Positions 7,535 to 53,895 of a stretch of 64,000 nt of DNA are shown here, one piece after another. Position 1 is the stretch's first letter. Every line of letters begins with the position of its first letter. The translations under genes were made by a program, and so were the position numbers. This DNA comes from Micromonospora pallida (lineage in GTDB: Bacteria; Actinomycetota; Actinomycetes; Mycobacteriales; Micromonosporaceae), in assembly GCF_900090325.1 (NCBI RefSeq), contig NZ_FMHW01000002.1, positions 5,581,001 through 5,645,000 on the forward strand. Direction: 5' to 3'. The notes beneath the pieces were generated by a model. The model was given only the letters and a program-made list of their open reading frames with translations, was not told where the DNA came from and made no database searches.

Positions 7535-7610
7535 GGTGGCATCCTGCTCGGTGGCATCGCGCTCGGTGGCATCGTGCTCGCCGGCCCAGGGGTTCGGTGG
7601 TTCACTGCTC
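7535..7610 (-). repeat. 15-nt tandem repeat at the stop codon of the IclR gene
   Basis: Three 15-base units at 7535-7549, 7550-7564 and 7565-7579 differ from one another by only one or two bases. A fourth, diverged unit at 7596-7610 contains the last two codons and stop codon of the IclR gene. This is the weakest of six similar cases in the window. Confidence 0.65.
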
Positions 7611-8384
7611 GGCGGTGAGCCCCTCGGCGACGGTCCGGGCCGCGGTGAGCAGCTTGGCGCGGACCGCCCGGGCGGAGGTCATCAGCTCGCCGATCGGCAT
7701 GGCACAGGCGAGCACCACCCGACGCTCGATGTCCTTGTCCGGGGCGACGAGCACCGCCGCGCACGCCACCCCCGGCCGGAACTGGCCCAGTTCCATCTGC
7801 ATGCCCCGCCGGTCGCCGGCGGCCAGGTCGGTCTCGAACGCCTCGACAGTGGTCAGCGTGCCGGAGGTGAACGGGCGCATGCCGTATTCCCGCAGGTAGC
7901 GGAAGCGCTGCTCGGCGGTGAGCGTGGCCAGCATGCCCTTGCCGAGCGCCGTGGCGTGGGCGGCCTCGTCGAAGCCGGGCATCAGATCCTCCAGGTACGG
8001 CGACCGCGCCCCCTCGGCCACCGCCGTGATCGCCACCTGGCCGCCCACGAACCGGCCGAGGAAGTGGCTGTACCCGCTGTCCAGGGCCGCTCGGCGCAGT
8101 GTCTCGCCGACCACGGGGGGACCTCGGAAGGCGGTCACCAGTTCCCGGTACCGGTCGGCGATCTCCAGGCCGACGATGTAGGTACCGTCCTCCCGTCGGA
8201 TCACGTATCCCTCGTAGGCGAGGGTCCGGACCAGGTGATACGTGGTGGCCACCGTCAACTCGCAGCGCCGGGCGATCTGCTTGACGGTCAGGCCCTTCGG
8301 GGCACGACCGACCGCCTCGAGCACTCGTAGCGCGCGGGACACGCTCCGGATGAGATCGGAAGGTTCCGCCAAGGGGTCGCGCAC
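7602..8384 (-). CDS. IclR family transcriptional regulator
   Basis: A 260-residue regulator with an N-terminal winged helix-turn-helix (about residues 10-70, with the Leu-Thr-Val-Ala-Thr-Thr-Tyr-His recognition helix) and a C-terminal GAF-like effector domain, in which Gly-Lys-Gly-Met-Leu-Ala is typical of IclR. I chose the GTG at 8384 because GGAGG (8390-8394) lies five bases upstream; a GTG at 8390 overlaps that site, and a much longer frame upstream lacks support. It is divergent from an MFS transporter gene and probably controls it through sites in the shared 185-bp spacer. The effector is unknown. Confidence 0.88.
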   Translation of the reverse strand: MRDPLAEPSDLIRSVSRALRVLEAVGRAPKGLTVKQIARRCELTVATTYHLVRTLAYEGYVIRREDGTYIVGLEIADRYRELVTAFRGPPVVGETLRRAALDSGYSHFLGRFVGGQVAITAVAEGARSPYLEDLMPGFDEAAHATALGKGMLATLTAEQRFRYLREYGMRPFTSGTLTTVEAFETDLAAGDRRGMQMELGQFRPGVACAAVLVAPDKDIERRVVLACAMPIGELMTSARAVRAKLLTAARTVAEGLTAEQ

Positions 8385-8429
8385 AACCACCTCCGCCGCC
8401 GGGGATCTACACCATATGAAAAACAGGCC

Positions 8430-8515
8430 TCGTACGAAATGCCTGCCCGATCGAGGATGCCAGATATCCATCGACTGTGTGTGCACCGACAGACACAGTG
8501 AGTTGATCGACTGTG
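8430..8515. promoter_or_regulatory. Candidate operator region between the iclR-type and MFS genes
   Basis: Three kinds of symmetry lie here: an 8-bp palindrome TCGTACGA at 8430-8437; a perfect 7-bp inverted repeat ACTGTGT/ACACAGT at 8474-8480 and 8493-8499; and a 10-bp direct repeat ATCGACTGTG at 8470-8479 and 8506-8515. They are plausible IclR-family binding sites. Confidence 0.4.
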
Positions 8516-8554
8516 ATCTGCGCCCGAATTAACCCTGCGGTGACCGCCGCTGGG

Positions 8555-8560
8555 TACGTT
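8555..8560 (+). promoter_or_regulatory. -10 box of near-leaderless MFS gene
   Basis: TACGTT lies nine bases before the ATG at 8570, giving a predicted leader of only about two bases, and no Shine-Dalgarno sequence is present. Confidence 0.45.
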
Positions 8561-8569
8561 GGCCGCACC

Positions 8570-9772
8570 ATGACCGACACCACCCCCGCCACCCGCGTTT
8601 CCCCTGCTCCGGCCCGTCCGGTACGCGTCGGCGTCGGCGCGATCGCCACCACCGTCGCCTGCGTGCTGCCCGTCTTCCTGCTCGGTGGCCTGGCCGTGCA
8701 GATGGGTGCCGAGCTGGGTTTCTCCCCCACCGGACTCGGGGTGGCCGTGGCCGTCTACTTCGGCGTGAGCGCGGTCGCCTCGATCCCCTCCGGGGCACTC
8801 GTGGAGCGGTACGGCCCCACCCGGGTCGCCCGCGCCGGCATCCTGCTGGCCGCCGGGTCACTGCTCGCCGTGGCGGCGTTCGCGCGGTCGTACCCGGTGC
8901 TGGTCGCCCTGCTGGCGGTCAGCGCCGCTGCCAACGCGCTCGGGCAGATCGCCAGCAACGCCGCACTGGCCCGGCACGTGCCCACCCGTCGCCAGGGGCT
9001 GTCGTTCGGGGCCAAGCAGGCCGCGATCCCGGTCGCCACCCTGCTGGCGGGTGCCGCCGTACCGGCTGTCGCGTTGACCGCCGGCTGGCGCTGGGCATTC
9101 GTGATCGCGGCGGGTGCGGCCGTGGCGGCGCTGGGCACCGTACCCGGGCGGGAACCCGAGCCCGTCCGACGGACCGGCCGTGGTCAGCGGGGGCGACCAC
9201 CGGTGCCGCTGGTGCTGGTCGGGGTGGCCGGGACGCTCGCCGCCGCCGCCGCGAACGCGCTCGGCACCTTCCTGGTCGACTCCGCCGCCGCCCGTGGACT
9301 GGATCCGGGGCTGGCCGGACTGACACTGACCCTGGGCAGCGCCGTCTGCGTCCTCGCCCGCGTGGGGTCCGGTTGGCTCGCCGACCGGCGAACCGGAAGC
9401 CACGTCGCGGTCATCGCCGGGATGCTCGGGGTGGGCGCGCTGGGGCTGGCGTTGCTCGCCGTGGCCGGAACGGTTCCGCTGGTGGTCGGCGTGGTGCTCG
9501 GCTTCGGCCTGGGCTGGGCCTGGCCCGGGGTGATGAACTTCGCCGTGGTCCGGCTGTACCCGCAGACACCGGCCGTCGCCACCTCGATCACCCAGACCGG
9601 CGTGTACGCGGGCGGCTGCCTCGGTCCGCTGGCGCTCGGTCTCCTGGCCGGCCGCCTCGGCTACCCGACCATGTGGGCCACCGGCGCAGCCGCCATGCTC
9701 CTGGCCGCCGCCCTGATGCTCCTGGCCACCCGCACCCTTCCCACCCCGCCGGCCCCGGCCTCAGCGGGTTGA
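8570..9772 (+). CDS. MFS transporter
   Basis: A 400-residue major facilitator superfamily protein with twelve predicted helices, split by a basic loop near the middle (about residues 188-210). The loop between helices 2 and 3 carries a Gly-Ala-Leu-Val-Glu-Arg-Tyr-Gly sequence related to the MFS signature. It is closest in character to the CynX/NimT-like or aromatic-acid exporters, but the substrate cannot be told. The divergent IclR gene is the likely regulator. A start at 8513 would cover the promoter and is not used. Confidence 0.8.
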   Translation: MTDTTPATRVSPAPARPVRVGVGAIATTVACVLPVFLLGGLAVQMGAELGFSPTGLGVAVAVYFGVSAVASIPSGALVERYGPTRVARAGILLAAGSLLAVAAFARSYPVLVALLAVSAAANALGQIASNAALARHVPTRRQGLSFGAKQAAIPVATLLAGAAVPAVALTAGWRWAFVIAAGAAVAALGTVPGREPEPVRRTGRGQRGRPPVPLVLVGVAGTLAAAAANALGTFLVDSAAARGLDPGLAGLTLTLGSAVCVLARVGSGWLADRRTGSHVAVIAGMLGVGALGLALLAVAGTVPLVVGVVLGFGLGWAWPGVMNFAVVRLYPQTPAVATSITQTGVYAGGCLGPLALGLLAGRLGYPTMWATGAAAMLLAAALMLLATRTLPTPPAPASAG

Positions 9773-9844
9773 ACAAGGAGTCGGCGGCACCGACTGACCG
9801 ACGCCGTAAGACGGAACCAGGGACGGGGTGCCGTAAAACAGGGG

Positions 9845-10930
9845 TCAGCTGGTGCGGTCGGCTACGAAGTCGCAGAGGGACTCGAGGGCCTGGCGGGCGG
9901 GACCCTCGGGCAGCGGCGAGAGCTGTTCCCGGGCCTCCTCGGCGTAGCTGTGCACCGTCTCCCGGGCCCGCTTCAGCGCCGGGCTCTCCCGGAGCAGACC
10001 GAGCGCCTCGGCGTGCAGGTCGTCGTCGGTGACCGGTCCGGTGGCCAGGATCTCCCGCAGCCGCACCGAGGAGGCGTCCGCGTCGTCCGAGGCCAGCGCG
10101 TAGAGCACCGGCAGGGTGGGGACGCCCTCGCGCAGGTCCGTGCCCGGGGTCTTGCCCGACTGCACCGACTCGGACGAGATGTCGAGCAGGTCGTCGGAGA
10201 GCTGGAAGGCCAGACCGATGGTCTCGCCGTACCCGGCGAGCGCCTCGACGTACGCGGCCGGGGCACCGGCGAACTTGGCACCGAACCGGGCCGAGGTCGC
10301 GATCAGCGAACCGGTCTTCTCGGCGATCACGTGCAGGTAGTGCTGGACCGGATCGTCCCCGGGGCGCGGCCCCACCGTCTCGGCGATCTGGCCGTGCACC
10401 AAGCGGGCGAAGGTGCGTGCCTGGAGACGGACCGCCTCGGTGCCCAGGTCGGCGGCGATGTCCGCGGCCCGGGCGAAGAGGTAGTCGCCGACCAGGATGG
10501 CGATCGAGTTGTTCCAACGGGAGTTGGCGCTGGGCGCACCCCGACGCACCGACGCCTCGTCCATCACGTCGTCGTGGTAGAGCGTGGCCAGGTGGGTGAG
10601 TTCCATCACCACCGCCCCCGGCGCCACCTGCGGGGCGGTCGGGTCGCCGAGTTGGGCACCGAGTGCCACCAGCAACGGCCGGAACCGCTTCCCGCCGGCC
10701 TCGACCAGGTGCCGGGCGGCCTCGGTGACGAGCGGGTCGGCACTCGCGACGCTCGACCTCAGCTCGGCCTCGACCGTTTCCAGCAGGCCAAGTACGGACG
10801 CCTCGATCTGGGCGTCGGCGAAGTAGAGGCCGAGCGAGTCGAATTGTCCCGCTCCCGGACGGGTCCGACGACCGCCGGAGCCGAGGGCACCTGTTCGCTG
10901 GCCAGCCGCTTTCTCCACGCCCTCAACCAT
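9845..10930 (-). CDS. Long-chain all-trans polyprenyl diphosphate synthase (menaquinone side chain)
   Basis: A 361-residue trans-isoprenyl diphosphate synthase that condenses isopentenyl diphosphate units. The first aspartate-rich motif, Asp-Asp-Val-Met-Asp, is at 120-124 and the second, Asp-Asp-Leu-Leu-Asp, at 246-250. Residues 115 and 116, just before the first motif, are Ala and Thr rather than aromatic, which in this family permits long products. The gene lies just downstream of nuoN on the same strand, and the operon terminator intervenes. Mycobacterial grcC1 and streptomycete relatives near nuo and menG have the same context, supporting a role in making the menaquinone tail. Confidence 0.9.
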   Translation of the reverse strand: MVEGVEKAAGQRTGALGSGGRRTRPGAGQFDSLGLYFADAQIEASVLGLLETVEAELRSSVASADPLVTEAARHLVEAGGKRFRPLLVALGAQLGDPTAPQVAPGAVVMELTHLATLYHDDVMDEASVRRGAPSANSRWNNSIAILVGDYLFARAADIAADLGTEAVRLQARTFARLVHGQIAETVGPRPGDDPVQHYLHVIAEKTGSLIATSARFGAKFAGAPAAYVEALAGYGETIGLAFQLSDDLLDISSESVQSGKTPGTDLREGVPTLPVLYALASDDADASSVRLREILATGPVTDDDLHAEALGLLRESPALKRARETVHSYAEEAREQLSPLPEGPARQALESLCDFVADRTS

Positions 10931-11095
10931 GCCACACCCCCTCGACCTGTTCCGGTCGGGGCGGCGCCGGTGCAATCCCGGGCACAGTCACCGTCGACCG
11001 GAAAACCGCTCAGCCGACCACCGACCCGGCAGGCATCCGGAAAACGGGCGCCCCGAGGGCGGGGTGGGGCGGAGAAGCGGAGCCAGGGTACGGAA

Positions 11096-11165
11096 ACGGC
11101 CGGTCCCGGCCACTGCCGTGGCACCCGGCGAACCGGAGGCGACGGCGGTGGCCGGGACCGGCCGT
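11096..11165 (-). terminator. Terminator of the nuo operon
   Basis: Perfect 18-bp arms at 11096-11113 and 11148-11165 flank a 34-base GC-rich loop just beyond the nuoN stop codon. No T tract follows, as is common in actinobacteria. The rest of the spacer to 10930 shows only the upstream region of the polyprenyl synthase gene. Confidence 0.75.
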
Positions 11166-11170
11166 GAGGG

Positions 11171-12727
11171 TTATCGAATGAACTGCGCGGCGCCGTCAGC
11201 CAGGTCGAGCAGCGGGGCCGGGGCCACGCCCAGGAACACCGTGGCGGCCACCCCGATCATCAGTGCGGCGGCGGTCAGTCCACCGGGCACGGTGACCGTC
11301 GGGGTGGAGTCGCCCGGCTCGGAGAGCCACATCATCACCACGACCCGCAGGTACGGGAAGGCGAGCACCATGCTGGTCAGCACACCGGCGATCACCAGCC
11401 ACGCCTGCCCGCCGTCCAGCGCCGGACCGAAGACCGCGACCTTGCTCATGAAGCCGCTGGTCAGCGGGATCCCGGCGAAGGCCAGCAGGATGAGGGTGAA
11501 CAGACCGGCGTAGAACGGCGACCGGCGCCCCAGACCCGCCCAGCGCGACAGGTGGGTGGCCTCGCCGTCGGCGTCCCGGACCAAGGTCACCACAGCGAAC
11601 GCGGCGAGCACCGAGAAGCCGTACGCGACCAGGTAGAACATCGTGCCGGAGAGGCCCTCGCTGCCCGGCGCGAGCACGCCGACCAGCAGATAACCGGCAT
11701 TGGCGATGGACGAGTACGCCAGCAGCCGCTTGATGTCGGTCTGGGTGACCGCCAACACCGCGCCGACCAGCATGGTGAGCACCGCCACCCCGCCGAGCAC
11801 CGGGGTGAAGTCCCAGGCGGCCCCGCCGAAGGCGACGTGGAAGATCCGCAGCAGGGCCCCGAAGGCGGCGACCTTGGTACAGGCGGCCATGAAGCCGGTG
11901 ATCGGGGTCGGCGCGCCCTGGTAGACGTCCGGGGTCCAGACGTGGAACGGAGCCGCCGCGGCCTTGAACAGCAGGCCGATGGCGAGCAGCGCGATGCCGG
12001 CGAAGAGCAGCACCCGGCTGGACGTGGACTCGGTCACCGCCGCGGCGACCGTGTTCAGGTCGACCCCGGCCTCCCGGTTCGGGATGCCGGAGGTGAAGCC
12101 GTAGATCAGCGCCACGCCGAACAGGAAGAACGCCGAGGCGTACGCGCCGAGCATGAAGTACTTCAGCGCGGCTTCCTGGCTCAGCAGCCGGCGCCGCCGG
12201 GCCAGCGCGCAGAGCAGGTAGAGCGGCAGCGAGAAGACCTCGAGGGCGATGAACATGGTCAGCAGGTCGTTCGCCGCCACGAAGATCAGCATGCCGGCGA
12301 TGGCGAAGGTGGTCAGCGGGTAGACCTCGGTCGCCCCGTGCTGCCCCTCGGCCTGCCGGCGGTCGTCGGTCGACTCGGCCCGGACCGCGGCCTGGGCCAC
12401 GAACGCCCCGCCCCGCTCGACGGTGCGCTCGCCGATCAGCAGCAGCGCCACCGCGGCGAGGATCAGGATGCCGCCCTGGAGGAAGAGGGTCGGCCCGTCC
12501 ACCGCGATCGCCCCGCCGATGGTGATGCCCTTGTGGTCGTCGGCGGCGACCACCGCCACGAACGCGACCAACACGGCCAGCAGGGCGAGCATGAGCTGGA
12601 CCGGGTGGCGGCCCCGGCGCGGCACGAACGCCTCCACCAGGACGCCGAGCAGGGCCGCGCCCAGCATGGTCAGGATCGGCAGGAGCGCCAGATAGTCGAT
12701 CGACGGCAACTCAAGTTGCTCGGTCAC
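11171..12727 (-). CDS. nuoN: NADH-quinone oxidoreductase subunit N
   Basis: A 518-residue, roughly fourteen-helix proton-pumping subunit of complex I, related to Mrp antiporters. The family's conserved charged residues sit in membrane segments around the Lys-Ala-Ala-Ala-Ala-Pro-Phe-His-Val-Trp-Thr-Pro-Asp motif, and Ser-Ser-Ile-Ala-Asn-Ala-Gly-Tyr is also present. The GTG start overlaps the nuoM stop (GTGA). It is the last gene of the operon, is followed by a strong hairpin, and ends with the only TAA stop I noticed among the nuo genes besides nuoF. Confidence 0.97.
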   Translation of the reverse strand: MTEQLELPSIDYLALLPILTMLGAALLGVLVEAFVPRRGRHPVQLMLALLAVLVAFVAVVAADDHKGITIGGAIAVDGPTLFLQGGILILAAVALLLIGERTVERGGAFVAQAAVRAESTDDRRQAEGQHGATEVYPLTTFAIAGMLIFVAANDLLTMFIALEVFSLPLYLLCALARRRRLLSQEAALKYFMLGAYASAFFLFGVALIYGFTSGIPNREAGVDLNTVAAAVTESTSSRVLLFAGIALLAIGLLFKAAAAPFHVWTPDVYQGAPTPITGFMAACTKVAAFGALLRIFHVAFGGAAWDFTPVLGGVAVLTMLVGAVLAVTQTDIKRLLAYSSIANAGYLLVGVLAPGSEGLSGTMFYLVAYGFSVLAAFAVVTLVRDADGEATHLSRWAGLGRRSPFYAGLFTLILLAFAGIPLTSGFMSKVAVFGPALDGGQAWLVIAGVLTSMVLAFPYLRVVVMMWLSEPGDSTPTVTVPGGLTAAALMIGVAATVFLGVAPAPLLDLADGAAQFIR

Positions 12728-14256: not shown

Positions 14257-14320
14257 TATTCGGCCTTACCTCCGTCGTTACTGCGCGGTCCGCCGGCAGC
14301 GGCGGCCGGGAAGAGGTCGA

Positions 14321-16246: not shown

Positions 16247-16259
16247 TGCGTCGGCCCCT

Positions 16260-16559
16260 CTAGTACTTGAGCAGGTTGGCGTCGTCGACGCTCGCCGAGC
16301 GTCGAGTCCGGAAGATCGACATGATGATCGCGAGTCCGACCACGACCTCGGCGGCGGCCACCACCATCACGAAGAAGGCCATGATCTGCCCGTTCAGGTC
16401 ACCGTTGATCCGGGCGAAGGTGACCAGGGTCAGGTTGGCCGCGTTCAGCATCAGCTCGATGCACATGAACAGCACGATCGCGTTGCGACGGATGAGCACC
16501 CCGACCGCACCGATGGTGAACAGCACCGCGGCCAGGATCAGGTAGTTGTCCGGCGTCAT
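16260..16559 (-). CDS. nuoK: NADH-quinone oxidoreductase subunit K
   Basis: A 99-residue, three-helix membrane subunit. The conserved glutamate-containing helix ([11 protein letters not shown]) and the second one (Ala-Ala-Ala-Glu-Val-Val-Val-Gly-Leu) are both present. Unlike its neighbours it does not overlap the previous gene: two 60-bp tandem repeat units lie between nuoJ and its ATG. Confidence 0.97.
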
Positions 16560-16560
16560 C

Positions 16561-16680
16561 CCTGAGCCTGCCTTTCGTTCGCGACTGCGGGGCTCCGCTC
16601 CGCTGCACTCCTCGCGCTCACGGATGCCTGCCTTTCGTTCGCGACTGCGGGGCTCCGCTCCGCTGCACTCCTCGCGCTCA
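16561..16680 (-). repeat. Two 60-bp tandem units between nuoJ and nuoK, each starting with the nuoJ stop codon sequence
   Basis: Positions 16566-16620 and 16626-16680 are identical over 55 bases. Read in the direction of transcription each unit starts with TGAGCGCGAGGAGTGCAGCG, so the first TGA is the nuoJ stop and the second is a duplicate 60 bases later, in the same frame. A third copy with one mismatch lies at 36859-36909 behind paaC. Each unit contains a GAGGAG that could resemble a ribosome binding site. Confidence 0.95.
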
Positions 16681-17448
16681 CCGGTCGGTCCCCTTCAGCG
16701 TCGTCTCCTCCGCGCTCAGCTCCCGGACCGGCATGATCTCGGGGATGCTGCGCTCGGTCAGCCGGCCGTCGGGCAGGCGGGCCGGGGTGGCCACCGAGGA
16801 GGAGGTGGCGAAGACACCCGGACCGGGCTTCGGGCCGGGGTAGCTGCCGGGCCGGAACCGGGCCTTCATGGTCGCGATCTGGTCGACCTTGTCCTCGCGT
16901 CGCCGCTCGATGTGCGCCAGCACCATCGCCCCGACCGCGGCGGTGATCAGCAGCGCCGAGGTCAACTCGAAGGCGAAGACGTACTTGGTGAAGAGAAGCC
17001 GGGCGATGCCCTGCACGTTCCCCTCGGCGTTGGCCTCGTCCAGGCCGACCGCGGTGGTGCCGTCGAGCGCCCGGGCCAGACCACCGGCGACCAGGCCGGC
17101 GAAACCGAGGCCGAGCAGGATCGCCGCGACCCGCTGCCCGCGCAACGTCTCGATCAGCGAGTCGGACGAGTCCCGGCCGACCAGCATCAGCACGAACAGG
17201 AACAGCATCATGATCGCGCCGGTGTAGACGATGATCTGCACCATGCCGATGAACGGGCCTGCCTGGAGCACGTAGAACACGCCTAGGCAGAGCATGGTCA
17301 GCACCAGCCAGAGCGCCGAGTGCACCGCGTTGCGGGCCCAGAGCATGCCGATCGCGCCGAGCAGCGCCAACGGGGCGAGGATCCAGAAGGTGACCTCCTC
17401 GCCGCCGGACACCTCGCCCGCCGCGGCCAGCACCGTCTGCGTGGTCAT
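16678..17448 (-). CDS. nuoJ: NADH-quinone oxidoreductase subunit J
   Basis: A 256-residue membrane subunit with five helices in the first 180 residues ([15 protein letters not shown] is the conserved third helix). A roughly 75-residue hydrophilic C-terminal tail is longer than in Escherichia coli but usual for actinobacteria. The ATG overlaps the nuoI stop. Its own TGA forms the first bases of the repeated element that follows. Confidence 0.96.
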
Positions 17449-18095: not shown

Positions 18096-18096
18096 G

Positions 18097-32891: not shown

Positions 32892-32898
32892 ACCCGCG

Positions 32899-33269: not shown

Positions 33270-34172
33270 ATGTTGCTCGTACCCGCCGACCCGCTTCGCC
33301 CCCGCCACCCGGACCCGCACTTCGCCCCCGAGGCCCTGACCGCCCGGGAGGCCGGCGTACCAGTCGCGCTGGTCGACCACGACGCGCTCGCCCGAGGCGA
33401 CGCCGACGCCGCTCTACGACGCCTGCCCGGCGAGGGTGAGGCGGTCTACCGAGGCTGGATGCTCCACGCCGACCGGTACGCCGCCTTCGCCGAGGCGTTA
33501 GCCACCCGGGGCGTCACCCTACGCACCCGCCCCGACCAGTACCGACGCGCGCACGAACTGCCCGGCTGGTACGCGGACCTGGCCCCGGTGACCCCGGTGA
33601 CCGTCTGGACGTCCGGCGACGGACGGGACGCCTTCGACCAGGCCCGCACGGAACTCGGTGACGGCCCGGCGGTGCTCCGCGACTACTGCAAGTCCATGAA
33701 GCACTACTGGCACGAGGCGACCCTCATCCCCGACCTGGCCGACGCCGAGGCGGCCTGGGCGGTCGCTCGCCGCTTCCGGGAACTCCGCGAGGACGACTTC
33801 GTCGGTGGCTTCGTGCTCCGCCGCTTCGAGCAGTTCACCTCGGCAGAGGTACGCACCTGGTGGCGGGACGGCCAGTGCGTCCTGGTCGGCCCACATCCGG
33901 ACACGCCCAACCTGCCCCCCGACACCACCCCCGACCTGACCACCATCACGCCACTGGTGGCCGCCCTCTCCCTGCCCTTCGTCACCGTCGACCTAGCGCA
34001 GCGCGACGACGGCGTCTGGCGCGTGGTCGAGCTGGGCGACGCCCAGGTCAGCGACCGCCCCGCCACCATCACCCCAGCCCGCCTACTCACCCCACTGCTA
34101 CCCCCCACCCCCACCCCCCACCCCACGCCCCCTGACCGCCCCGTCGATCATGGAGTTGTGGCGCCCAATTAG
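33270..34172 (+). CDS. ATP-grasp domain protein (DUF4343-like)
   Basis: A 300-residue protein resembling small ATP-grasp proteins of unknown substrate, with Val-Leu-Arg-Asp-Tyr-Cys-Lys-Ser-Met-Lys as the nucleotide-binding lysine region, an acidic Arg-Phe-Glu-Gln-Phe segment and Val-Val-Glu-Leu-Gly-Asp-Ala-Gln-Val-Ser near the end as the metal site. There is no Shine-Dalgarno; CATGAT lies six bases before the ATG. Codon 77 is TTA, rare in this DNA and a possible bldA-dependent control point. The last 12 codons and the stop come from an inserted palindromic element, so the native C-terminus has probably been replaced. Confidence 0.7.
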   Translation: MLLVPADPLRPRHPDPHFAPEALTAREAGVPVALVDHDALARGDADAALRRLPGEGEAVYRGWMLHADRYAAFAEALATRGVTLRTRPDQYRRAHELPGWYADLAPVTPVTVWTSGDGRDAFDQARTELGDGPAVLRDYCKSMKHYWHEATLIPDLADAEAAWAVARRFRELREDDFVGGFVLRRFEQFTSAEVRTWWRDGQCVLVGPHPDTPNLPPDTTPDLTTITPLVAALSLPFVTVDLAQRDDGVWRVVELGDAQVSDRPATITPARLLTPLLPPTPTPHPTPPDRPVDHGVVAPN

Positions 34173-36381: not shown

Positions 36382-36851
36382 AGCGCCTTCAGGTGGTCGA
36401 AGGGTTCACGGCAGGATCGGCAGCGCCAGAGCGCCTTGCAGGCGGTGGAGCCGAACCGGCTGATCTGCTCGGTCTCCGGTGACCCGCAGCGCGGGCAGCG
36501 GACGGCCAGGGTCAGCGGCACCGCACCGCCGGTCCGGGTTGACGCTGGTGGGGCGATGCCGGCGGTAGCCAGTTTGGCCCGCCCGGCCTCGGAGATCCAG
36601 TCGGTGCTCCAGGCGGGCATGAGCACCGTGCGGACCTCGGCGTCGGGGTGGCCGGCGGCGGCGAGTGCGCGGCGGATGTCGGCGCGGATCACGTCCATCG
36701 CCGGGCAGCCGGTGTAGGTGGGAGTGATGGTGACCACCACCCGGCCGGTGGCCGGGTCCTCCTCGACCGAGCGCAGGATGCCGAGGTCGTCGATGGTGAG
36801 CACCCGGATCTCCGGGTCCACCACCGCCGCCACGACGACCCGTGGGTTCAA
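36378..36851 (-). CDS. paaD: Phenylacetate-CoA oxygenase assembly protein PaaD
   Basis: A 157-residue protein with an N-terminal MIP18/SufT-like domain (Asp-Pro-Glu-Ile-Arg-Val-Leu-Thr-Ile-Asp-Asp-Leu-Gly-Ile, then Tyr-Thr-Gly-Cys-Pro-Ala) and a C-terminal zinc ribbon Cys-Pro-Arg-Cys-Gly-Ser ... Cys-Arg-Ser-Cys. It is thought to help load metal into the epoxidase. The only suitable start is TTG at 36851, preceded by AAAGG inside the repeated element that separates it from paaC; the frame stays open through that element but has no other start codon. Confidence 0.93.
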   Translation of the reverse strand: MNPRVVVAAVVDPEIRVLTIDDLGILRSVEEDPATGRVVVTITPTYTGCPAMDVIRADIRRALAAAGHPDAEVRTVLMPAWSTDWISEAGRAKLATAGIAPPASTRTGGAVPLTLAVRCPRCGSPETEQISRFGSTACKALWRCRSCREPFDHLKAL

Positions 36852-36858
36852 CGGTGTC

Positions 36859-36909
36859 GCCTTTCGTTCGCGACTGCGGGGCTCCGCTGCGCTGCACTCC
36901 TCGCGCTCA
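36859..36909 (-). repeat. Third copy of the nuoJ/nuoK intercistronic element, between paaC and paaD
   Basis: Fifty of 51 bases match 16570-16620. As at nuoJ, the element begins on the coding strand with the stop codon of the upstream gene (paaC TGA at 36907-36909) and ends a few bases before the next start codon. Confidence 0.95.
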
Positions 36910-37659
36910 CCACACGGCTCCGGGATGGGCGCGGTGGAGCACCTGCATCTCGGCGAGCAGGTACGACAGGTGCTCGGTGTGTACGCCGTCGCGACCGCCG
37001 GACGGGGCCCAGCCGTCGGCCGGGCGGGTCAGCGTCGCGTCGGCGAGCACCGCTTCCACCGTCTCCAGCCACTGGTCCCGCAGGGTCGACGGGGCGGCGG
37101 CCAGCCCGGCCGCGTCCAGCCGGGCGGTCAGCTCGTCGGCGGCGAAGAGTTCGTGGGTGTACGGCCAGATCTCGTCCACCGCCGCCTGCATCCGCCGGTG
37201 CGACTCCTCGGTGCCGTCGCCGAGCCGGCGCACCCAGAGCGCGGCGTGGTCGAGGTGGTAGGCGGACTCCTTGCGGGCCTTCGCGGCGATCGCGTGGATC
37301 CGTTCGTCGGTGGACGCCACCAGCCACTCGTAGAGCAGATGCTGGTAGGCGGCGAGGAAGAGCAGCTTCGCCATGGTCACCGCGAAGTCGCCGTTCGGCA
37401 GCTCGACCAGGAGGCAGTTGCGGAACTCGCGATCGTCGCGCAGGTACGCCAGCGCGTCCTCGTCCCGCCCGGCGGCCTCCAGCTCACCGGCGTACGTCAG
37501 CAGCAGCCGGGCCGCGCCGAGCTGGTCGAGGGCGATGTTGGACAGCGCGACGTCCTCCTCCATCTCCGGTGCCCGGCTGGTCCACTCGGCGAGGCGCTGG
37601 GCGGCGATCAGGGCGTCGTCGCCGACCCGGAGCGTGAACTCGTGCAGGTCGCGGTTCAC
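36907..37659 (-). CDS. paaC: 1,2-phenylacetyl-CoA epoxidase structural subunit PaaC
   Basis: A 250-residue ferritin-like subunit that pairs with PaaA to hold and stabilise the oxygenase. Typical sequences are Asp-Asp-Ala-Leu-Ile-Ala-Ala-Gln-Arg-Leu-x-Glu-Trp, Asn-Ile-Ala-Leu-Asp-Gln-Leu-Gly and Lys-Glu-x-x-Tyr-His. The GTG start overlaps the paaB stop. Its stop codon is the first triplet of the dispersed element that follows. Confidence 0.95.
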   Translation of the reverse strand: MNRDLHEFTLRVGDDALIAAQRLAEWTSRAPEMEEDVALSNIALDQLGAARLLLTYAGELEAAGRDEDALAYLRDDREFRNCLLVELPNGDFAVTMAKLLFLAAYQHLLYEWLVASTDERIHAIAAKARKESAYHLDHAALWVRRLGDGTEESHRRMQAAVDEIWPYTHELFAADELTARLDAAGLAAAPSTLRDQWLETVEAVLADATLTRPADGWAPSGGRDGVHTEHLSYLLAEMQVLHRAHPGAVW

Positions 37660-39010: not shown

Positions 39011-39018
39011 AGGTCAAG

Positions 39019-41270: not shown

Positions 41271-41303
41271 TCCCCGCCGGCCTGCCCGCCGGGGCGCGTC
41301 CCC

Positions 41304-42321
<1,018 letters not shown>

Positions 42322-43617: not shown

Positions 43618-43624
43618 TTCGCGG

Positions 43625-43657
43625 AACGTAGTCACGGGCGTTCGGCTCGGTCAATCG
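43625..43657 (-). promoter_or_regulatory. Promoter of the leaderless MFS gene
   Basis: On the minus strand TTGACC (43649-43654 region) and TACGTT (43625-43630) are separated by 18 bases, and the start codon follows seven bases later. This is the best two-box promoter in the window. Confidence 0.6.
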
Positions 43658-43693
43658 GTTAACGTCCGCCCGGGGCAACCGGTTGACCGAGCC
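43644..43693. promoter_or_regulatory. 17-bp inverted repeat (16 of 17) over the MFS promoter
   Basis: Arms 43644-43660 and 43677-43693 match at 16 of 17 positions around a 16-base spacer. The left arm contains the MFS -35 box, so a dimeric or paired repressor would block that promoter. The right arm is 54 bases from the -10 box of the divergent helicase gene. Confidence 0.55.
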
Positions 43694-43746
43694 GGCTCTC
43701 CCGGGCGCGTCGGGGAAAACCCGCAACGTCGGCGGCCGCCGGGGCG

Positions 43747-43752
43747 TAGACT
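43747..43752 (+). promoter_or_regulatory. -10 box of the HelD-like gene
   Basis: TAGACT implies a transcript start near 43759 and a leader of about 110 bases, which contains a GCGGTG/CACCGC hairpin at 43774-43791. Confidence 0.4.
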
Positions 43753-43870
43753 CTGTCGTTCCCGCCGACGGCCGCGGTGATCGAGCACCGCAGCGGACGT
43801 CCCGCGCCGACCCACCTGGTCGGAAACGCGAGCGGAAGTGTCTTCTCCCCCGCGTCGAGGAGTACGTCGG

Positions 43871-45940: not shown

Positions 45941-46057
45941 GCCGGCTGGTCGACCTCGGGTGGGTTCTGGCCGGATCCCCGGACACGACCGGCCCGCCGG
46001 TGCCAGGATGCCGGCAGGGCGCGCCGACAGGGCGGGCCCCTGCCGAGAGGGGGCGCG

Positions 46058-46825: not shown

Positions 46826-46830
46826 GCATC

Positions 46831-46920
46831 AAACCGGTGGCCGGCAGCAAGGTGGAGCATCAGGGCGTGGCCGGCACCGAGGTACGGCGTCAGGGCGTGG
46901 CCGGCATGGGGCGGACCGGA
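46831..46920 (-). repeat. 30-nt tandem repeat reiterating the 3' end and stop codon of the ABC ATPase gene
   Basis: Units 46831-46860, 46861-46890 and 46891-46920. The ATPase stop is TGA at 46890-46892; the same last codons (Pro-Ala-Thr-Pro-stop) recur exactly 30 bases later and, degenerate, 60 bases later. Because the period is ten codons, the second stop is in frame. Confidence 0.85.
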
Positions 46921-47768
46921 ACCACCAGCGGGCCGTGGGTGCCGTCGACGACCCGGACCCGGGCCCGGTAGTGGGTGGCGAGCAGTTCCTCGGTGAGCAC
47001 CTCGCGCGGGGTGCCGGTGGCGACCGCCCGGCCGCCGGCGACCAGCACCAGGCGGTCGGCGTACTCGCCGGCGACGGTGAGGTCGTGCATGGTGGCGAGC
47101 ACGGTCAGCCCGTGCGCCTGGCGGAGCTGGTCGACCAGCTCCAACACCTCCTGCTGGTGGCCGATGTCCAGGGCACTGGTCGGCTCGTCGAGCAGCAGCA
47201 GCGTGGCTCCCTGCGCCAGGGCCCGGGCCAGGAAGACCCGCTGCCGTTCCCCACCGGAGAGGGTGGCCAGCTCGCGGCGGGCGAAGCCGGTCAGGTCGAG
47301 CCGGTCGAGGACCTCGCGCACGGCGGCCAGGTCCGTGGCGGATTCCCGGCCCAGTGGCGGGACGTACGGGGTGCGCCCGAGCAGCACGTAGTCGAAGACG
47401 GACATGCCGGCCGGGACGGCCGGGGACTGGGCCACCGTGGCGACCACCCGGGCCCGGTCCCGGCGGCGCAGGGCGGCGCTCGGCGTACCGAAGAGGGAGA
47501 TGGCGCCGGTCGCGGGGAGCAGGCCGCCGACGGCGCGCAGCAGGGTGGACTTGCCCGCGCCGTTCGGGCCGATCACGGTGACCCACTCGCCGACCGCGAC
47601 GGTCAGGTCGACCCCGGTGAGGATCGGGACACGGTCCAGACTGACGTGCAACCCCCGGACCTCGACGGCGACGCCCGCGTGAGCAGGCGCCGGGCGGTCG
47701 GCGCTCAGGTAACCAGGCGCTGGGCGGTCGGCGGTCACGTGATCAGGTGCCGGGCGGTCGGCGGTCAC
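46890..47768 (-). CDS. btuD: ABC transporter ATPase, cobalamin uptake (BtuD type)
   Basis: A 292-residue ATPase of the iron-siderophore/B12 family. Walker A Gly-Pro-Asn-Gly-Ala-Gly-Lys-Ser-Thr, signature Leu-Ser-Gly-Gly-Glu-Arg-Gln-Arg and Walker B Leu-Leu-Leu-Leu-Asp-Glu-Pro are intact. The first 30 residues are three near-identical ten-residue units (Thr-Ala-Asp-Arg-Pro-Ala-Pro) produced by a DNA repeat at the permease/ATPase junction, so the real start may be in a later unit. B12 specificity is inferred from the riboswitch upstream of the operon. Confidence 0.85.
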   Translation of the reverse strand: MTADRPAPDHVTADRPAPGYLSADRPAPAHAGVAVEVRGLHVSLDRVPILTGVDLTVAVGEWVTVIGPNGAGKSTLLRAVGGLLPATGAISLFGTPSAALRRRDRARVVATVAQSPAVPAGMSVFDYVLLGRTPYVPPLGRESATDLAAVREVLDRLDLTGFARRELATLSGGERQRVFLARALAQGATLLLLDEPTSALDIGHQQEVLELVDQLRQAHGLTVLATMHDLTVAGEYADRLVLVAGGRAVATGTPREVLTEELLATHYRARVRVVDGTHGPLVVPVRPMPATP

Positions 47769-47790
47769 GTGATCACCCGCCGGGCGGTGC
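47671..47790 (-). repeat. 30-nt tandem repeat across the permease stop and ATPase start
   Basis: Four aligned units: 47671-47700, 47701-47730, 47731-47760 and 47761-47790. The unit in the permease gene contains its last codons and TGA (47765-47767); the others lie in the ATPase gene in another frame and encode its Thr-Ala-Asp-Arg-Pro-Ala-Pro repeats. Confidence 0.9.
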
Positions 47791-48814: not shown

Positions 48815-48867
48815 CCCGAGCGCAGGAGCCGTGCCCTTGCCCGTGCCCGCCCCGCCCAGGTGTGAGG

Positions 48868-48909
48868 AGGGGTCCCCTGTTACCGCTTTTTGCATAGGAG
48901 GGGACCCCT
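48868..48909 (+). repeat. Palindromic element, copy B, between btuF-like and btuC-like genes
   Basis: Arms 48868-48878 and 48899-48909 are perfectly complementary. Bases 48868-48892 are identical to the complement of 7472-7496. The element sits 18 bases behind the substrate-binding-protein stop, within the operon, and contains an ATG in frame with the permease gene. As an attenuator it would lower permease and ATPase expression relative to the binding protein. Confidence 0.8.
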
Positions 48910-48927
48910 GCTACCAGCTCGGTACGG

Positions 48928-49866
48928 TCACGCGACCGGGGCCTTGGCGACGGCGTCCACGATGGCGCGGAGCAGGTCGACCACGCGCGGCCCCCACCGG
49001 GAGGCGATGTCGTCGTCGAGCGGCACGACCTGGTTGTTCTTCACCGCGGTGAGACCGGCCCAGCCGCCGCGCGCGCCCACGGTCTGCGCGCTCTGCTGGC
49101 AGCACTTGGTATCGGCCAGGAAGATGAAGTCCGGGTCGGCCTTGACGATCACTTCCTGGGAGAGCTGCGGGTAGCCGCCGTTCTTGCCGTCGGCGTCGGA
49201 CGGGTCGGCGATGTTCTCCAGCCCGACCAGCGCGTACAGCGAGCCGATGTAGGTCTTGCTGGTCGCGGTGTACAGCTCCGGGCCCAGCTCGTGGTAGTAG
49301 GTGAGCTTCTCGGTGCGCTTCGGCAGGCCCTCGACCAGCTTGGCGATGTCGTCCTTCATCCGGCGGGTCACGTCGGCCGCCTCGTCGGCCTGCCCGGTGA
49401 GCTGGCCCAGCTCGGTGATCTGTCGGTACGTGTCGTCCAGGGTCTGTGCCGCCGGCACGAGGTGGACCGGGATCTTCAGGGCGGCGAGCTGGTCGACGAT
49501 CTTGTTCCTGTCGTCGGAGAGCACGACGAGGTCCGGGCTCTTCGCGGAGATCGCCTCGGCGTTCGGCTGGAAGCCGGACAGGTCGGTCTTCGGCGCCTCC
49601 GGCGGGTAATTCGACTGGTCGTCGACCGCGGTGACCTGCGGGCCCGCGCCGATGGCGAAGAGCATCTCGGTGGCGGCGGCGGAGAGCGAGACGATCTTCT
49701 CGGGCCGCTTCTCCAAGGTCAGGTTGCCGACCGTGACGGGGAACTGGCCAGCCCCGCTGCTCGCGCCGGCGGTCGGCTCGTCGGTGGTCTGTTCGGCGCA
49801 GGCACCGAGCGCGAGCGCGGTGACCGCGAGCGCCACGGTGAGGAGTCGAGGGGTACGTCTGGACAT
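48928..49866 (-). CDS. btuF: Cobalamin-binding lipoprotein (BtuF-type ABC substrate-binding protein)
   Basis: A 312-residue lipoprotein. The signal peptide ends in Leu-Gly-Ala-Cys with Cys23 as the lipidation site; the rest is a class III periplasmic-binding-protein fold (two lobes joined by one helix), with Ile-Val-Ser-Leu-Ser-Ala-Ala-Ala-Thr-Glu-Met-Leu-Phe-Ala-Ile-Gly-Ala typical of BtuF and siderophore-binding relatives. The ATG has AGGAGG upstream, partly paired in a hairpin below a cobalamin riboswitch, which is why I name it BtuF rather than an iron carrier. Confidence 0.88.
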   Translation of the reverse strand: MSRRTPRLLTVALAVTALALGACAEQTTDEPTAGASSGAGQFPVTVGNLTLEKRPEKIVSLSAAATEMLFAIGAGPQVTAVDDQSNYPPEAPKTDLSGFQPNAEAISAKSPDLVVLSDDRNKIVDQLAALKIPVHLVPAAQTLDDTYRQITELGQLTGQADEAADVTRRMKDDIAKLVEGLPKRTEKLTYYHELGPELYTATSKTYIGSLYALVGLENIADPSDADGKNGGYPQLSQEVIVKADPDFIFLADTKCCQQSAQTVGARGGWAGLTAVKNNQVVPLDDDIASRWGPRVVDLLRAIVDAVAKAPVA

Positions 49867-49873
49867 CTGACCT

Positions 49874-49906
49874 CCTGTCGGTCGAGGAGTGTGCTTCGCC
49901 GACAGG
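49874..49906 (-). promoter_or_regulatory. Hairpin that masks the btuF ribosome binding site
   Basis: Read on the minus strand, CCTGTCGG (49899-49906) pairs perfectly with CCGACAGG (49874-49881), whose end overlaps the AGGAGG of btuF. It is a plausible translational expression platform for the cobalamin riboswitch directly upstream. Confidence 0.55.
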
Positions 49907-49959
49907 GGCCTGGGCCCGACCGCCCGCGAGGCGCCCTTCCTCGAGAGCGCGTGTCGCGA

Positions 49960-50097
49960 CCGTCCGCAGGCGGCCTGGCTCGTCCTTCCGTCCGGCGTGG
50001 AGCCGGCGCGTCCCCGACCGGCGGCCGGGGTGGAAGGCGTCACAGTTGCGGGACAGCGCCGGATTCGGACCGGCTTCGCTGCGGGTGGTCCGGGGGA
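49960..50097 (-). promoter_or_regulatory. Cobalamin riboswitch
   Basis: On the minus strand the aptamer core is clear: GCCGGTCCGAATCCGGCGCT followed by GTCCCGCAACTGTGACGCC, then, after variable hairpins, GAGCCAGGCCGCCTGCGG, the equivalent of the B12-box region GAAGCCAGGxxxCCTGCC. A TACCGT -10-like box at 50098-50103 would start the RNA at its 5' edge. Such riboswitches shut off B12 uptake or synthesis genes when adenosyl- or methylcobalamin is plentiful. Confidence 0.85.
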
Positions 50098-50114
50098 ACG
50101 GTAGCGCACCACGG

Positions 50115-50155
50115 ACGGTGGGGGCGGCCCGGTGTGCCCGGCCCGCCCCCACCGT
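50115..50155 (-). terminator. Terminator of the carboxypeptidase gene
   Basis: ACGGTGGGGGCGG and its complement form a 13-bp perfect stem that continues with nearly complementary inner bases, seven bases beyond the M14 peptidase stop and just before the riboswitch promoter. Confidence 0.75.
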
Positions 50156-50161
50156 CGCTGG

Positions 50162-51862
50162 TCAGACCGTCAGGGTCCAGGTATTGATGTAGCCGGTGTC
50201 GGTGGTGTAGATGTCCCGCGCCTGCAACCGCCAGGTGCCGTCGGCCGTCTCGCCCGACACGTCCACCGTGTAGGTGGTGTTGACGTTGTCCGCGCTGTCC
50301 GAACTGCTGCTGTTCTTCAGCCGGTAGGCGGTGCCGTCCGGGGCGAGCAGGTCGATGACCAGGTCACCCCGGTAGGTGTGCGGGATGTCCACGGCCACGC
50401 TGGCGGTGGCCGAGGCCGCCCGGCCGCAGTCAGCGATGGTGATCGCGCTCGTCACCGCCGTACCGCCGTCCGGGATGGCGACGTCCGTGCCGTTGGTGGC
50501 CGTGCAGCCGGTCGGGTCCGGCGGCGGGGTGCCGCCACCGCAGTAGGTGCCCTGCTTGCCGATCGCCCGGTACGGGCAGTCGGCGTACTCACTGAGCAGC
50601 AGCACCGCGTCCTTGTTCCGGGTGGTCTCCCGGCTGATCACCTCGTCGGGCGGGTAGAAGCCGCCGCTGAAGGCGTTCTTCGGGTACATCTCGAAGGTGT
50701 ACGCCCAGATCTTGTGCTGCCCCCACATCCAGTCGAGGCTGTCGCCGTCGGTGATGTACAGGTCGCTGGACTGCTCCGGGGTGTAGCCGTTGAGGGCCGC
50801 CATCTGCTGGCCGATGGCGGCGAAGGTGTTGTACTGGTCGGTGGTCATCCCCGGGGCGGTGTTGTTGTACGTGTAGCCGAACGGCCAGAGCACCAGCTCC
50901 GAGTAGGTGTGGAAGTCGATGTTCGCCTTGATCTGCTGGACGCCGCCGATCACCCGGCTGTTGACGAAGTTCCGGAAGGCCGCGGTCTCCGGCGCGGAGA
51001 ACGCCGACGGGCCACGGTAGGTCTCCGACGAGGGCGAGCTGGACGAGCCGCCGCAGCAGCCCCACTGGTAGCCCCAGTTCCGGTTCAGGTCGGTGCCGAC
51101 CGCCGTCGAGCCGCTGTTCGGCTGCCGGTTCTTCCGCCAGGACCGGTACGAGCCGGTGGCGATGTCGTACTCGCTGCCGTCCGGGTTCACCGTCGGGATG
51201 ATCCACAGTTCCCGGCTGTTGACCACGTTGGTCACCCGCGAGTCGGTGCCGTAGCTGTCGGTGAAGAGGTTGAGCAGGTAGATCGCCATCTCGACGGTCA
51301 GGTGCTCCCGGGCGTGCTGCTGGGAGTTGAACACGATCTCCGGCTCGTCCTCGTCGGTGGCGACGTTGTCGGAGATCTTGACCGCCATCAGGTCGCGGCC
51401 CTCGTACGACTGACCGATGCTGATCTTGCGGGCGAGGGTGGGGTGGTCGGCGACCACCTGGTTCACCACGGCGGTCAGCTCGGCGTAGTCGTGGTAGTTC
51501 GAGTCGGCCGGCGGGAAGGCGGCCGGGCCGACCTCCGACGACTCGTCCGCGTGGTCGTGCGGGGCGGCCATCGGGTCGAGCCGGAAGCCGAGCTTCTTGA
51601 TCTCGGCGGCCTCGGCCGGGGTGGCCGAGACGACCAGCCGGCCGTGCTCGATGCCGTCGATGCTGGCCCCGGTACGGGCCACCGCGCTGCGGTCGTCGAC
51701 CGTACGCGGGCCGTGCACCTGGTACTGCGTGGCGACCGACTCTGAACGGTCACCTCGCGGCTCCGCTGAGACCGGCCCGGAGACCACGGCGAAGAGTCCC
51801 ACCGCGGCGCTGACGGCGAGCACCAACCCACGCCGGAGTGTGACGGATTTTCGGAAGGCCAT
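50162..51862 (-). CDS. Secreted M14 zinc carboxypeptidase with C-terminal P domain
   Basis: A 566-residue exported enzyme. Signal peptide to about residue 33; a propeptide; the M14 domain with zinc ligands His183 and Glu186 (His-Ala-Arg-Glu-His), His318 (Phe-His-Thr-Tyr-Ser-Glu) and catalytic Glu391 (Thr-Phe-Glu-Met-Tyr-Pro); then a roughly 110-residue proprotein-convertase P-domain (His-Thr-Tyr-Arg-Gly-Asp-Leu ... Gly-Thr-Trp-x-Leu). This is the plan of streptomycete zinc carboxypeptidases of the CPT type with a P domain. The ATG follows GGAGG at a good distance; an in-frame start at 51922 lacks support. It presumably trims secreted or environmental peptides. Confidence 0.9.
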
Positions 51863-52076
51863 GCCAACCTCCTGACAGTGCGGAGCGTCTCCGCTGGTGG
51901 ACCACACTTCACCACCGGCCACATAGTCATAGCAACATCGACGGCCTTCTCTTTCATGCCAAGCGGATCCTCACATCGGCAAAAATCTTCCCCCAGTGGA
52001 CATCTGGCGAAACTTCCCACCAAACGAGATAGTGAAAGACAGCGATGCATAACTCCCTACCAGCAGTGGAGCTTCC

Positions 52077-53422
52077 ATGGCCGGACCACGTCTACGCGCG
52101 GTCGCCGTCGTCGGCGTCACCGCGTTCGCCCTCCTCGCGACCACCGCGACCGCCACCGTCGCGTCCCCCGGCTCCGCCTCGCGCGGCAAGGCCACCCACG
52201 ACGAACAGATCACCTGGCAGGACTGGGCCGGGTCGACTGACTGGAGCCAGGGCACGGCCGCCGGCACGGTCACCACCCCCACCGGGCTCACCCTCGGCGT
52301 CCCGGCCGGCACCACCACCTACCGGGATCCGCACACCGGCATCAAACGGGCCTGGGCGTACGGAACGTGGACCTCGCCGGTCACCCCGATCGGGTTCGAC
52401 GCGAGCGAGATGATCGCCTCCTGGAACGCGGCCACCCCGGCCGGCACCTGGCTCCAGGTCGAGTTGCAGGGCCGCTACACCGACGGCGTCCAGACCCCGT
52501 GGTACGTCATGGGCCGCTGGGCCTCGGGGACGCCGACATCCGGCGGACCACCGTCGACAAGCAGAGAGACGGACGCTCCGACGTCTGGACGGACACCCTC
52601 TCCGTACGGAACAAGGTGGCCGGACCGTTGCTGCGCGCGTACCAGCTCCGGCTGACCCTGTACCGGGCCTCCGACCAGCAGGCCGCCCCGGTGGTCCGGA
52701 TGGTCGGCGCGATGAGCTCGGACGTCCCCGACCGGTTCACGGTCACCCCGAGCGCCGGGGGCATCGCCTGGGGCGTCGAGCTACCCGTGCCCCGCTACTC
52801 GCAGATGATCCACTCCGGCCACTACCCGGAGTACGACGGCGGTGGTCAGGCGTGGTGCTCCCCCACCTCGACCGAGATGGTGGTGGAGTACTGGGGGCGC
52901 CGCCCGACCGCCGAGGAGACCGCCTGGGTCGACCCGACGTACCCGGACCCGACGGTCAACCACGCCGCCCGGAGCGTCTACGACTACACCTACTCCGGGG
53001 CCGGCAACTGGCCCTTCAACACCGCGTACGCGGCCAGCTTCCCCGGCCTGGAGGGACGGGTCACCCGGCTGCACTCCCTCGACGAACTGGAGCGCTTCAT
53101 CGCCGCCGGCATCCCGGTGGTGACCAGCCAGTCGTTCCTCGCCAGCGAACTCGACGGCTCGAACTACGGCACCTCCGGCCACCTTTTCGTGGTGGTGGGC
53201 TTCACCGCCGACGGCGACGTGGTCGTCAACGACCCGGCCTCGTCCAGCAACGACGTGGTGCGCAACGTCTACCCGCGGGAGCAGTTCGAGCAGATCTGGC
53301 TGCGGACCAAGCGGACCACGGCCAGTGGTGGCGTGGCCAGCGGCCCCGGGGGCGTCGCCTACCTGATCAAGCCGGTGGACCGCCCCTGGCCGGTACGCCC
53401 GGACGGTTCCACCAACTGGTAG
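52077..53422 (+). pseudogene. Secreted C39-like cysteine peptidase gene with a single-base frameshift
   Basis: Two overlapping frames together encode a roughly 448-residue protein: signal peptide and N-terminal beta domain in frame from 52077, then from about 52526 the rest in the frame ending at 53422. The break falls at GGGG (52526-52529); one extra G would join Ala-Ser-Gly to Asp-Ala-Asp-Ile-Arg-Arg. The second part has the catalytic Cys in Ala-Trp-Cys-Ser-Pro-Thr-Ser and His in Ser-Gly-His-Leu-Phe-Val-Val-Val-Gly, then Asn-Asp-Pro, as in C39-like peptidases. It may be a true pseudogene, a sequencing error in the G run, or frameshift-expressed. Confidence 0.75.
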
Positions 53423-53474
53423 TTCAGAAGGTCGGCTGACCCGGCGACGCGCGTCGCGTTTACCCGTACGCCGG

Positions 53475-53780
53475 TCAGCGCCGAGGCCCGTCGGGGGCAT
53501 CGCTCCCCGGCGGGGCCTCGGACGTGCTGTCGGACTCGTCGTCGCCGGCCAGGGCGGAGCGGAGCCGCTCCTTCTCGGTCCGGCGGCGATCGGCCGTGAC
53601 GGCCATATCCTCGGCCATCTCGTCCCGCCAGCCCCGCAGGAAGAAGAAGGAGAGCCCGGCGGAGAAGGCCAACGCCAACATCAGCTTGAGGTAGACGTTC
53701 AGCCCGACCGGCCAGAGGGCGAGCAGCACCACCACGAAGAGCCCGATCCTGCCCAGCGTGTACTTGACGCCCGCGCTCAC
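53475..53780 (-). CDS. DUF4229 family small membrane protein
   Basis: A 101-residue protein with two closely spaced helices (about residues 8-24 and 27-45) and an acidic/basic C-terminal tail, as in the actinobacterial DUF4229 family, whose function is unknown. The GTG at 53780 follows AAGGAG by nine bases. In mycobacteria and streptomycetes relatives often lie next to menaquinone genes; mqnE is 600 bases upstream here. Confidence 0.8.
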   Translation of the reverse strand: MSAGVKYTLGRIGLFVVVLLALWPVGLNVYLKLMLALAFSAGLSFFFLRGWRDEMAEDMAVTADRRRTEKERLRSALAGDDESDSTSEAPPGSDAPDGPRR

Positions 53781-53795
53781 GTTCCCACTCCTTCT

Positions 53796-53895
53796 TCCGC
53801 GTTCAGCCGGCACGCTGGCCGGCCGTTCAGCCCGTCCGCCGGGCCGGCCGTTCAGCCAGAATGCCGGGCCAGCCGTTCAGCCCGTGCGTCGGGCC
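53796..53895 (-). repeat. 25-nt tandem repeat reiterating the 3' end of the 142-codon gene
   Basis: Units 53821-53845, 53846-53870 and 53871-53895, with a looser fourth at 53796-53820. Each contains the complement of a TGA at the same place; the one at 53877-53879 is the stop of the membrane protein gene, and the units repeat its Ala-Arg-Arg-Thr-Gly-stop ending. Confidence 0.85.

Follow-up and report, generated by a model that had tools for sequence, protein, structure and literature searches.

Short tandem repeats near the ends of genes in Micromonospora pallida seem to stem from two processes that are mixed along the same DNA, a reading to which we give a probability of about 0.8. The stretch analysed, hereafter the window, comprises 64,000 nucleotides (nt) of contig NZ_FMHW01000002.1 (positions 5,581,001 to 5,645,000), in a genome of 7.76 Mb in four contigs. 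One process would be a slippage-like tandem duplication of short segments lying over or just past a stop codon, giving arrays that form separately in different lineages out of local sequence and serve no function related to the stop. The other would be a dispersed element of 54–63 bp that sits at start codons and is found in the window at the nuoJ/nuoK and paaC/paaD junctions. Past a gene, any length of array would be tolerated because the first copy keeps the gene whole, unlike inside genes or ahead of starts, and slippage-like local duplication that is tolerated past genes fits the gene-end arrays as the simplest reading.

Tandem Arrays at Gene Ends in the Window

The initial annotation had pointed to tandem arrays at the ends of six genes, all on the minus strand, with a copy of the stop codon in each unit. 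Arrays do lie close to all six places, as follows:

16566-16681, minus strand: nuoJ array, two head-to-tail units of about 60 nt, with a stop copy in each unit
46837-46906, minus strand: btuD-like array, 30-nt unit, over the stop of the ABC ATPase gene, with the stop in both full units
47678-47788, minus strand: btuC-like array, 30-nt unit, spanning the FecCD stop as well as the GTG with which the ABC ATPase gene begins
53800-53899, minus strand: membrane-gene array, 25-nt unit, made of the last bases of the 142-codon gene including its TGA, with the stop in four of four units
41409-41462, minus strand: mqnA array, 17–18 nt, three degenerate copies of the gene end, reading TGA, TGG and TGA
41302-41392, minus strand: separate 37-nt array farther downstream of mqnA, without a stop copy
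7534-7580, minus strand: iclR array, 15-nt unit, starting 21 nt past the stop

The repeated stop was found at four of the genes and only in part at mqnA, where the 17–18 nt array keeps it in two of three units and the middle one reads TGG. It is absent at iclR, where none of the three units has a TGA and the gene end has no further copy at up to four edits, and the idea that the iclR array is a degenerate copy of the gene end was therefore dropped. This 15-nt array was not seen in the sequences read from relatives.

The btuC-like array begins in the last FecCD codons, where the FecCD TGA overlaps the ABC ATPase GTG, and is mostly coding, three of its units encoding the ABC ATPase N-terminus as an in-frame 10-residue repeat. 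A different repeat occupies the same place in one relative (L194), which points to a variable protein start. A glyoxalase-family gene faces the btuD-like gene in convergent orientation. By eye, the units of the membrane-gene array can be written as short stems with changing loops.

The gene ends themselves were searched for further copies, at up to four edits, in 24 genomes for mqnA, 25 for the membrane gene and 25 for iclR, the genome under study included and each species represented by one genome. The membrane gene has four gene-end copies in its own genome, the best further copy differing by 2 edits in 18, and its end gave a weak echo (3–4 edits in 18) in 5 of 24 relatives and none in 19, shuffled probes leading to an expectation of 0.8 echoes in 25. 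For mqnA, a further copy with 3 edits was found in the own genome and a copy with 4 edits in 1 of 23 relatives. Comparison with the relatives shows the membrane-gene and mqnA arrays to be the last bases of these very genes, amplified in the lineage under study. Moreover, 1 of 24 relatives (G033, locus L242) has a gene-end copy of its own at iclR, which includes the stop, differs by 1 edit in 18 and is an independent case of the same event.

Genome-Wide Placement of the Arrays

The placement of arrays was examined in 100 stretches of 20 kb spaced evenly along the main contig (2.0 Mb), in which a home-made, codon-usage-based gene finder, spot-checked against the window, called 1783 genes (86.3% coding). 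Arrays were those reported by Tandem Repeats Finder at a score of at least 50 and a period of at least 10. Among the 532 arrays of the sample, 338 were fully coding and 143 fully intergenic, while 44 lay over a stop and 11 over a start, 5 of these over both. The window, with five stop-overlapping arrays against 1.4 expected from the sample (Poisson P = 0.015), is richer in them. The restriction to the minus strand is a local accident, since the gene–array pairs of the sample divide into 24 on the plus and 21 on the minus strand.

Among gaps of 30–600 bp between genes, an array was present in 56 of the 230 that are convergent, in 65 of the 651 between co-directional genes and in 17 of the 246 divergent ones (convergent versus divergent, P = 1e-7). 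With arrays counted within the gaps, 115 of the 1127 real gaps had one, as compared with 1, 3, 8 and 6 in four dinucleotide shuffles. Along genes with sufficient room, array borders rose from 9 per 1000 genes (−40 to −20 nt from the stop) to 28 (−20 to 0) and 44 (0–20 nt past it), then fell to 29 (20–40), 19–25 (40–120) and 11–17 beyond, and amounted to 9–16 ahead of starts and 0–3 just inside gene starts. In the vicinity of stops, arrays are thus more frequent than in other intergenic DNA, contrary to the outcome that the initial annotation had named as its refutation. The same was seen in a replication set of 80 loci of up to 8 kb from named relatives, from which 32 arrays of the dispersed element had been removed: 8 of 160 arrays lay over a stop and none over a start, and gaps with an array made up 10 of 47 convergent, 13 of 164 co-directional and 0 of 75 divergent ones.

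The stop arrays have a median period of 25 nt, which is a multiple of three in 12 of 44, whereas arrays inside genes have such a period in 300 of 340. No other match was found for 41 of the 44 (E = 1e-4, sample plus window), and the other three had weak ones. This result, together with the excess near stops, upholds the initial view of a recurrent event linked to gene ends, and a single shared mobile repeat behind all six arrays of the window was set aside in view of the 41 unmatched arrays. As a set, the six are indeed no single mobile repeat, but the nuoJ unit by itself belongs to a dispersed family.

An alternative that goes beyond tolerance is that gene ends are a genuine hotspot at which tandem duplications form more often, owing for example to terminators, R-loops or head-on transcription. 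The peak of array borders in the first 20 nt past stops agrees with this, as does the drop of coverage past about 100 nt even in convergent gaps; however, the border rate at the peak is only about twice that of the next 80 nt, and a profile of this form would also result if terminators imposed constraint that depends on position, so that we regard a hotspot as possible but rather unlikely. The arrays could also be tandem transcription terminators or other hairpins at 3′ ends, hairpins having been suggested in the initial annotation, and both their preference for convergent gaps and the stems into which some membrane-gene units can be written by eye would suit this role. Nevertheless, in comparison with dinucleotide shuffles the units of the 44 stop arrays show no gain in folding (mean z of 0.05, and about 0 in every class of array), and the dispersed element does not stand out either (z of 0.16, 0.83, 1.45 and −1.31), which makes hairpins an improbable explanation.

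TGA is a leaky stop codon, and every full unit over a stop repeats that stop by construction, but selection for back-up stops, also proposed at the outset, can be set aside as extremely improbable, since the stop bases match the next copy no better than the surrounding bases (0.796 versus 0.801 in the 36 arrays, out of 44, for which a score was possible), a stop is retained in 21 of the 36 stop copies as against 57% of other triplets intact, only 5 of 36 arrays have an in-frame stop copy, and the periods ignore the frame. Stop copies decay like their surroundings.

The Dispersed Element and Its Spread

The nuoJ array had been taken for a stop-anchored local repeat of the same sort as the other five. 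It turns out to consist of two units of a dispersed element for which the downstream start is equally an anchor, and a single copy of this element lies in the window between paaC and paaD. NuoK, PaaC and PaaD were assigned by NCBIfam. The element and the short open reading frame (mini-ORF) that it contains are placed as follows:

16622-16681 and 16566-16621, minus strand: the two element units at nuoJ/nuoK, the first GTGA overlapping the nuoJ stop (16678-16680)
16556-16681, minus strand: nuoJ/nuoK mini-ORF of 41 codons, which keeps its frame across the two units and whose TGA (16556-16558) overlaps the nuoK ATG (16557-16559)
36848-36910, minus strand: single element copy at paaC/paaD, its GTGA overlapping the paaC stop (36907-36909)
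36848-36850, minus strand: TGA of the 20-codon paaC/paaD mini-ORF, overlapping the paaD TTG start (36849-36851) as TTGA

Within the genome, the 60-nt nuoJ unit has 41 matches at E ≤ 10, some of them in tandem, and 25 at E < 0.05, including the two window units. These 25 occupy 20 loci, at 12 of which the GTGA of the element contains the upstream stop; two of the matches were flagged as lying inside a called gene, one of these with its right-hand gene on the opposite strand. The element was found in 25 of 25 genomes of the same genus, with from at least 5 to 65 matches each (E ≤ 0.001), and an exact tandem pair occurs in 55 of 200 genomes of the family, belonging to 10 of 44 genera. An exact 22-mer of its core was found at no fewer than 80 loci in named genomes, 72 in Micromonospora, 3 in Plantactinospora, 2 in Phytohabitans, 1 in Paractinoplanes and 2 in unplaced Micromonosporaceae. 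Among 197 genomes of the class, with at most four candidates scored per genome, it appeared only in three of the own genus. It is present at two places of one plasmid record, from Micromonospora terminaliae, and was not found in phage records, and Rfam gave no match in 16400-16800.

The layout was studied in the loci selected by the exact core 22-mer, in which a profile gave 140 matches in 82 arrays (46 single, 22 double, 13 triple and 1 quadruple). Both neighbouring genes run in the direction of the element in 72 of the 75 cases with genes on both sides, and the upstream gene stops exactly at the TGA of the GTGA in 57 of 73 same-direction cases. For comparison, 201 of 1125 co-directional pairs in the genome sample overlap by 4 nt. 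In addition, the fourth base of the downstream start is A in 64 of 71 starts at elements, as against 656 of 1703 for all genes.

Empty and Filled Junctions

Orthologous junctions were found both with and without the element, and its number of tandem copies differs between genomes. At nuoJ/nuoK, 9 of 19 genomes are filled, two of these twice, and the other 10 are empty, all with a plain RTGA overlap. At btuC/btuD, the element is present in 1 of 24 readable genomes, G010 ending at a contig end; a unit flagged by the script in G031 proved on reading by eye to lie inside coding sequence and was not counted. Directly past the stop in G035 (L197) there is a sequence resembling a degraded element core, which was likewise left out of the count. 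The junction between the membrane gene and the DUF4229 gene is filled in 3 of 25 genomes, with one, two and three units, respectively. In these three the element lies at the DUF4229 start, about 30–50 nt past the upstream stop, and it is therefore the start codon that seems to anchor it, whereas stops would be met because starts overlap stops in operons.

We infer that the element moves by insertion. Vertical inheritance with loss here and there, and no mobility, would be in keeping with the many old and degenerate copies; however, the filled fractions of the three junctions (9 of 19, 1 of 24 and 3 of 25) and the plain NTG starts of the empty ones, as a pattern of presence and absence scored without a tree, render it rather doubtful.

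Reading Phase and a Possible Coupling Function

The mini-ORF that begins at the GTG ends with a TGA overlapping the downstream start (NTGA) in 54 of 74 arrays, and in 13 more it continues in frame into the gene that follows; of the others, 2 overlap without a start codon and 5 are arranged otherwise, while 8 further arrays, completing the 82, have no close downstream gene. Its length in the overlapping cases is mostly 20 codons (n = 29), 19 (n = 11) or 21 (n = 10), with four others of different length. Ahead of the next start, 98 of the 115 copies have a stretch resembling a ribosome-binding site; the same rule finds one in 1007 of 1703 genes, a baseline for which the gene finder already favours such sites when it chooses starts.

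From the GTG to the next start, the length modulo three is 2 in 76 copies, 0 in 35 and 1 in 4 (115 distinct copies, 11 having been dropped), and the periods of tandem units behave alike (44, 3 and 65 for remainders 0, 1 and 2). If the phases of core and linker were independent, 26 copies with remainder 1 would be expected, and none of 20,000 permutations reached a value as low as 4. Reading phase is thus kept in 111 of 115 copies, core and linker phases compensating each other. Measured as far as the last base of the GCAGTCGCGA motif, the core is commonly either 40 or 45 nt long, and its second half is read in different frames in the two classes. Retention of the reading frame might suggest that the element is kept for its encoded peptide, but the two core lengths give unlike peptides while the linker length restores the phase, and a peptide function appears highly improbable.

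The element thus lies at start codons, mostly where a stop and a start overlap as NTGA inside an operon, and brings a GTG over the upstream stop, a mini-ORF of about 20 codons, a ribosome-site-like stretch and a TGA over the next start. In the mechanism that we propose on the strength of this layout, a ribosome that has completed the upstream gene would pass by way of the mini-ORF to the gene downstream. More tentatively, with a likelihood that we place a little below even, Micromonosporaceae may possess a mobile translation-coupling cassette of their own, which would target NTGA starts, have an origin independent of the mycobacterial interspersed repetitive units (MIRUs) and rely on dedicated machinery, its linker being re-tuned during or after insertion in a way that keeps the phase and not the peptide.

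Several observations weigh against the two-process reading or narrow it. Copying of gene ends does not explain the iclR array, and the weak membrane-gene echoes in 5 of 24 relatives indicate that not every duplication is private to its lineage. The enrichment is limited to about 100 nt past stops, where arrays cover 9–15% of convergent gaps; beyond 125 nt the coverage of these gaps falls to 2–5%, which is below the 5% of divergent gaps far from starts. Lack of constraint alone may therefore not explain it, and a local hotspot is possible. The genes of the sample rest on the home-made finder, which was not validated on an annotated genome. As regards the element, the upstream stop is missed in 16 of 73 cases, 2 of 82 arrays are inside called genes, and 4 of 115 copies are out of phase; since element copies are related, the counts of phase do not stand for independent events. 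A gene that mobilises the element was not found, none having been sought beyond phages and plasmids.

Other Repeats in the Window

An inverted motif, GGTAGCAGGGG...CCCCTGCTACC, recurs in the window at 7461-7502, near 34092 and at 48874-48915. With up to one mismatch, it has 158 matches in the 2.0 Mb sample, of which 112 are intergenic, and among those with both flanking genes 48 are in convergent gaps. For the reversed pattern the total, without division by location, is 119 matches, and the excess of the motif thus sits in its placement; it may be a dispersed terminator or a hairpin of the repetitive extragenic palindromic type. Dense arrays with units of 6–54 nt, in or near predicted genes at 56997-58177 and 60411-60665, are probably low-complexity parts of proteins.

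Comparison with Known Systems

The gene-end arrays resemble bacterial minisatellites, or variable-number tandem repeats, in being 10–60 nt tandem repeats that differ between species, and differ from them in being copied from the end of the very gene that they follow, stop included, and in crowding past genes. Marine Beggiatoaceae are reported (PMC4679880) to have TAACTGA direct repeats, which are likewise abundant, intergenic and furnished with stop triplets; these are one fixed heptamer, whereas gene-end arrays have locus-specific units of about 25 nt. A tolerance of gene ends for tandem duplication would introduce a bias into surveys of repeats, terminators and C-terminal evolution in such genomes.

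For the dispersed element, the nearest parallel is with MIRUs, which, according to a review of 2025 (PMC12548453), seem to be mobile and to enter genes at the start codon, the ORF inside the repeat being coupled to the gene there at −4 nt, and which are also reported to vary in copy number (PMC3635867). In the literature of 2007–2020, no work joining interspersed repetitive units with Micromonospora was found, which is a weak check on the novelty of the family. The element is similarly short, dispersed and present in many copies, single or in tandem; it lies at start codons, some relatives have the corresponding sites without it, and its inner ORF overlaps the downstream start at −4 nt (54 of 74, plus 13 in frame). 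On the other hand, it is found in Micromonosporaceae, and the likeness is one of layout. Each layout feature that can be compared matches, and the element would, as far as sequence can tell, work like a mycobacterial MIRU, being of the same kind by behaviour, whether or not by descent. If so, the MIRU way of life, in which a unit with an ORF and a ribosome site inserts at start codons and is made harmless by coupling, would have evolved or spread beyond mycobacteria, and the natural filled and empty junctions, with one to three units, would be a ready-made system in which to test how translation is coupled in high-GC bacteria.

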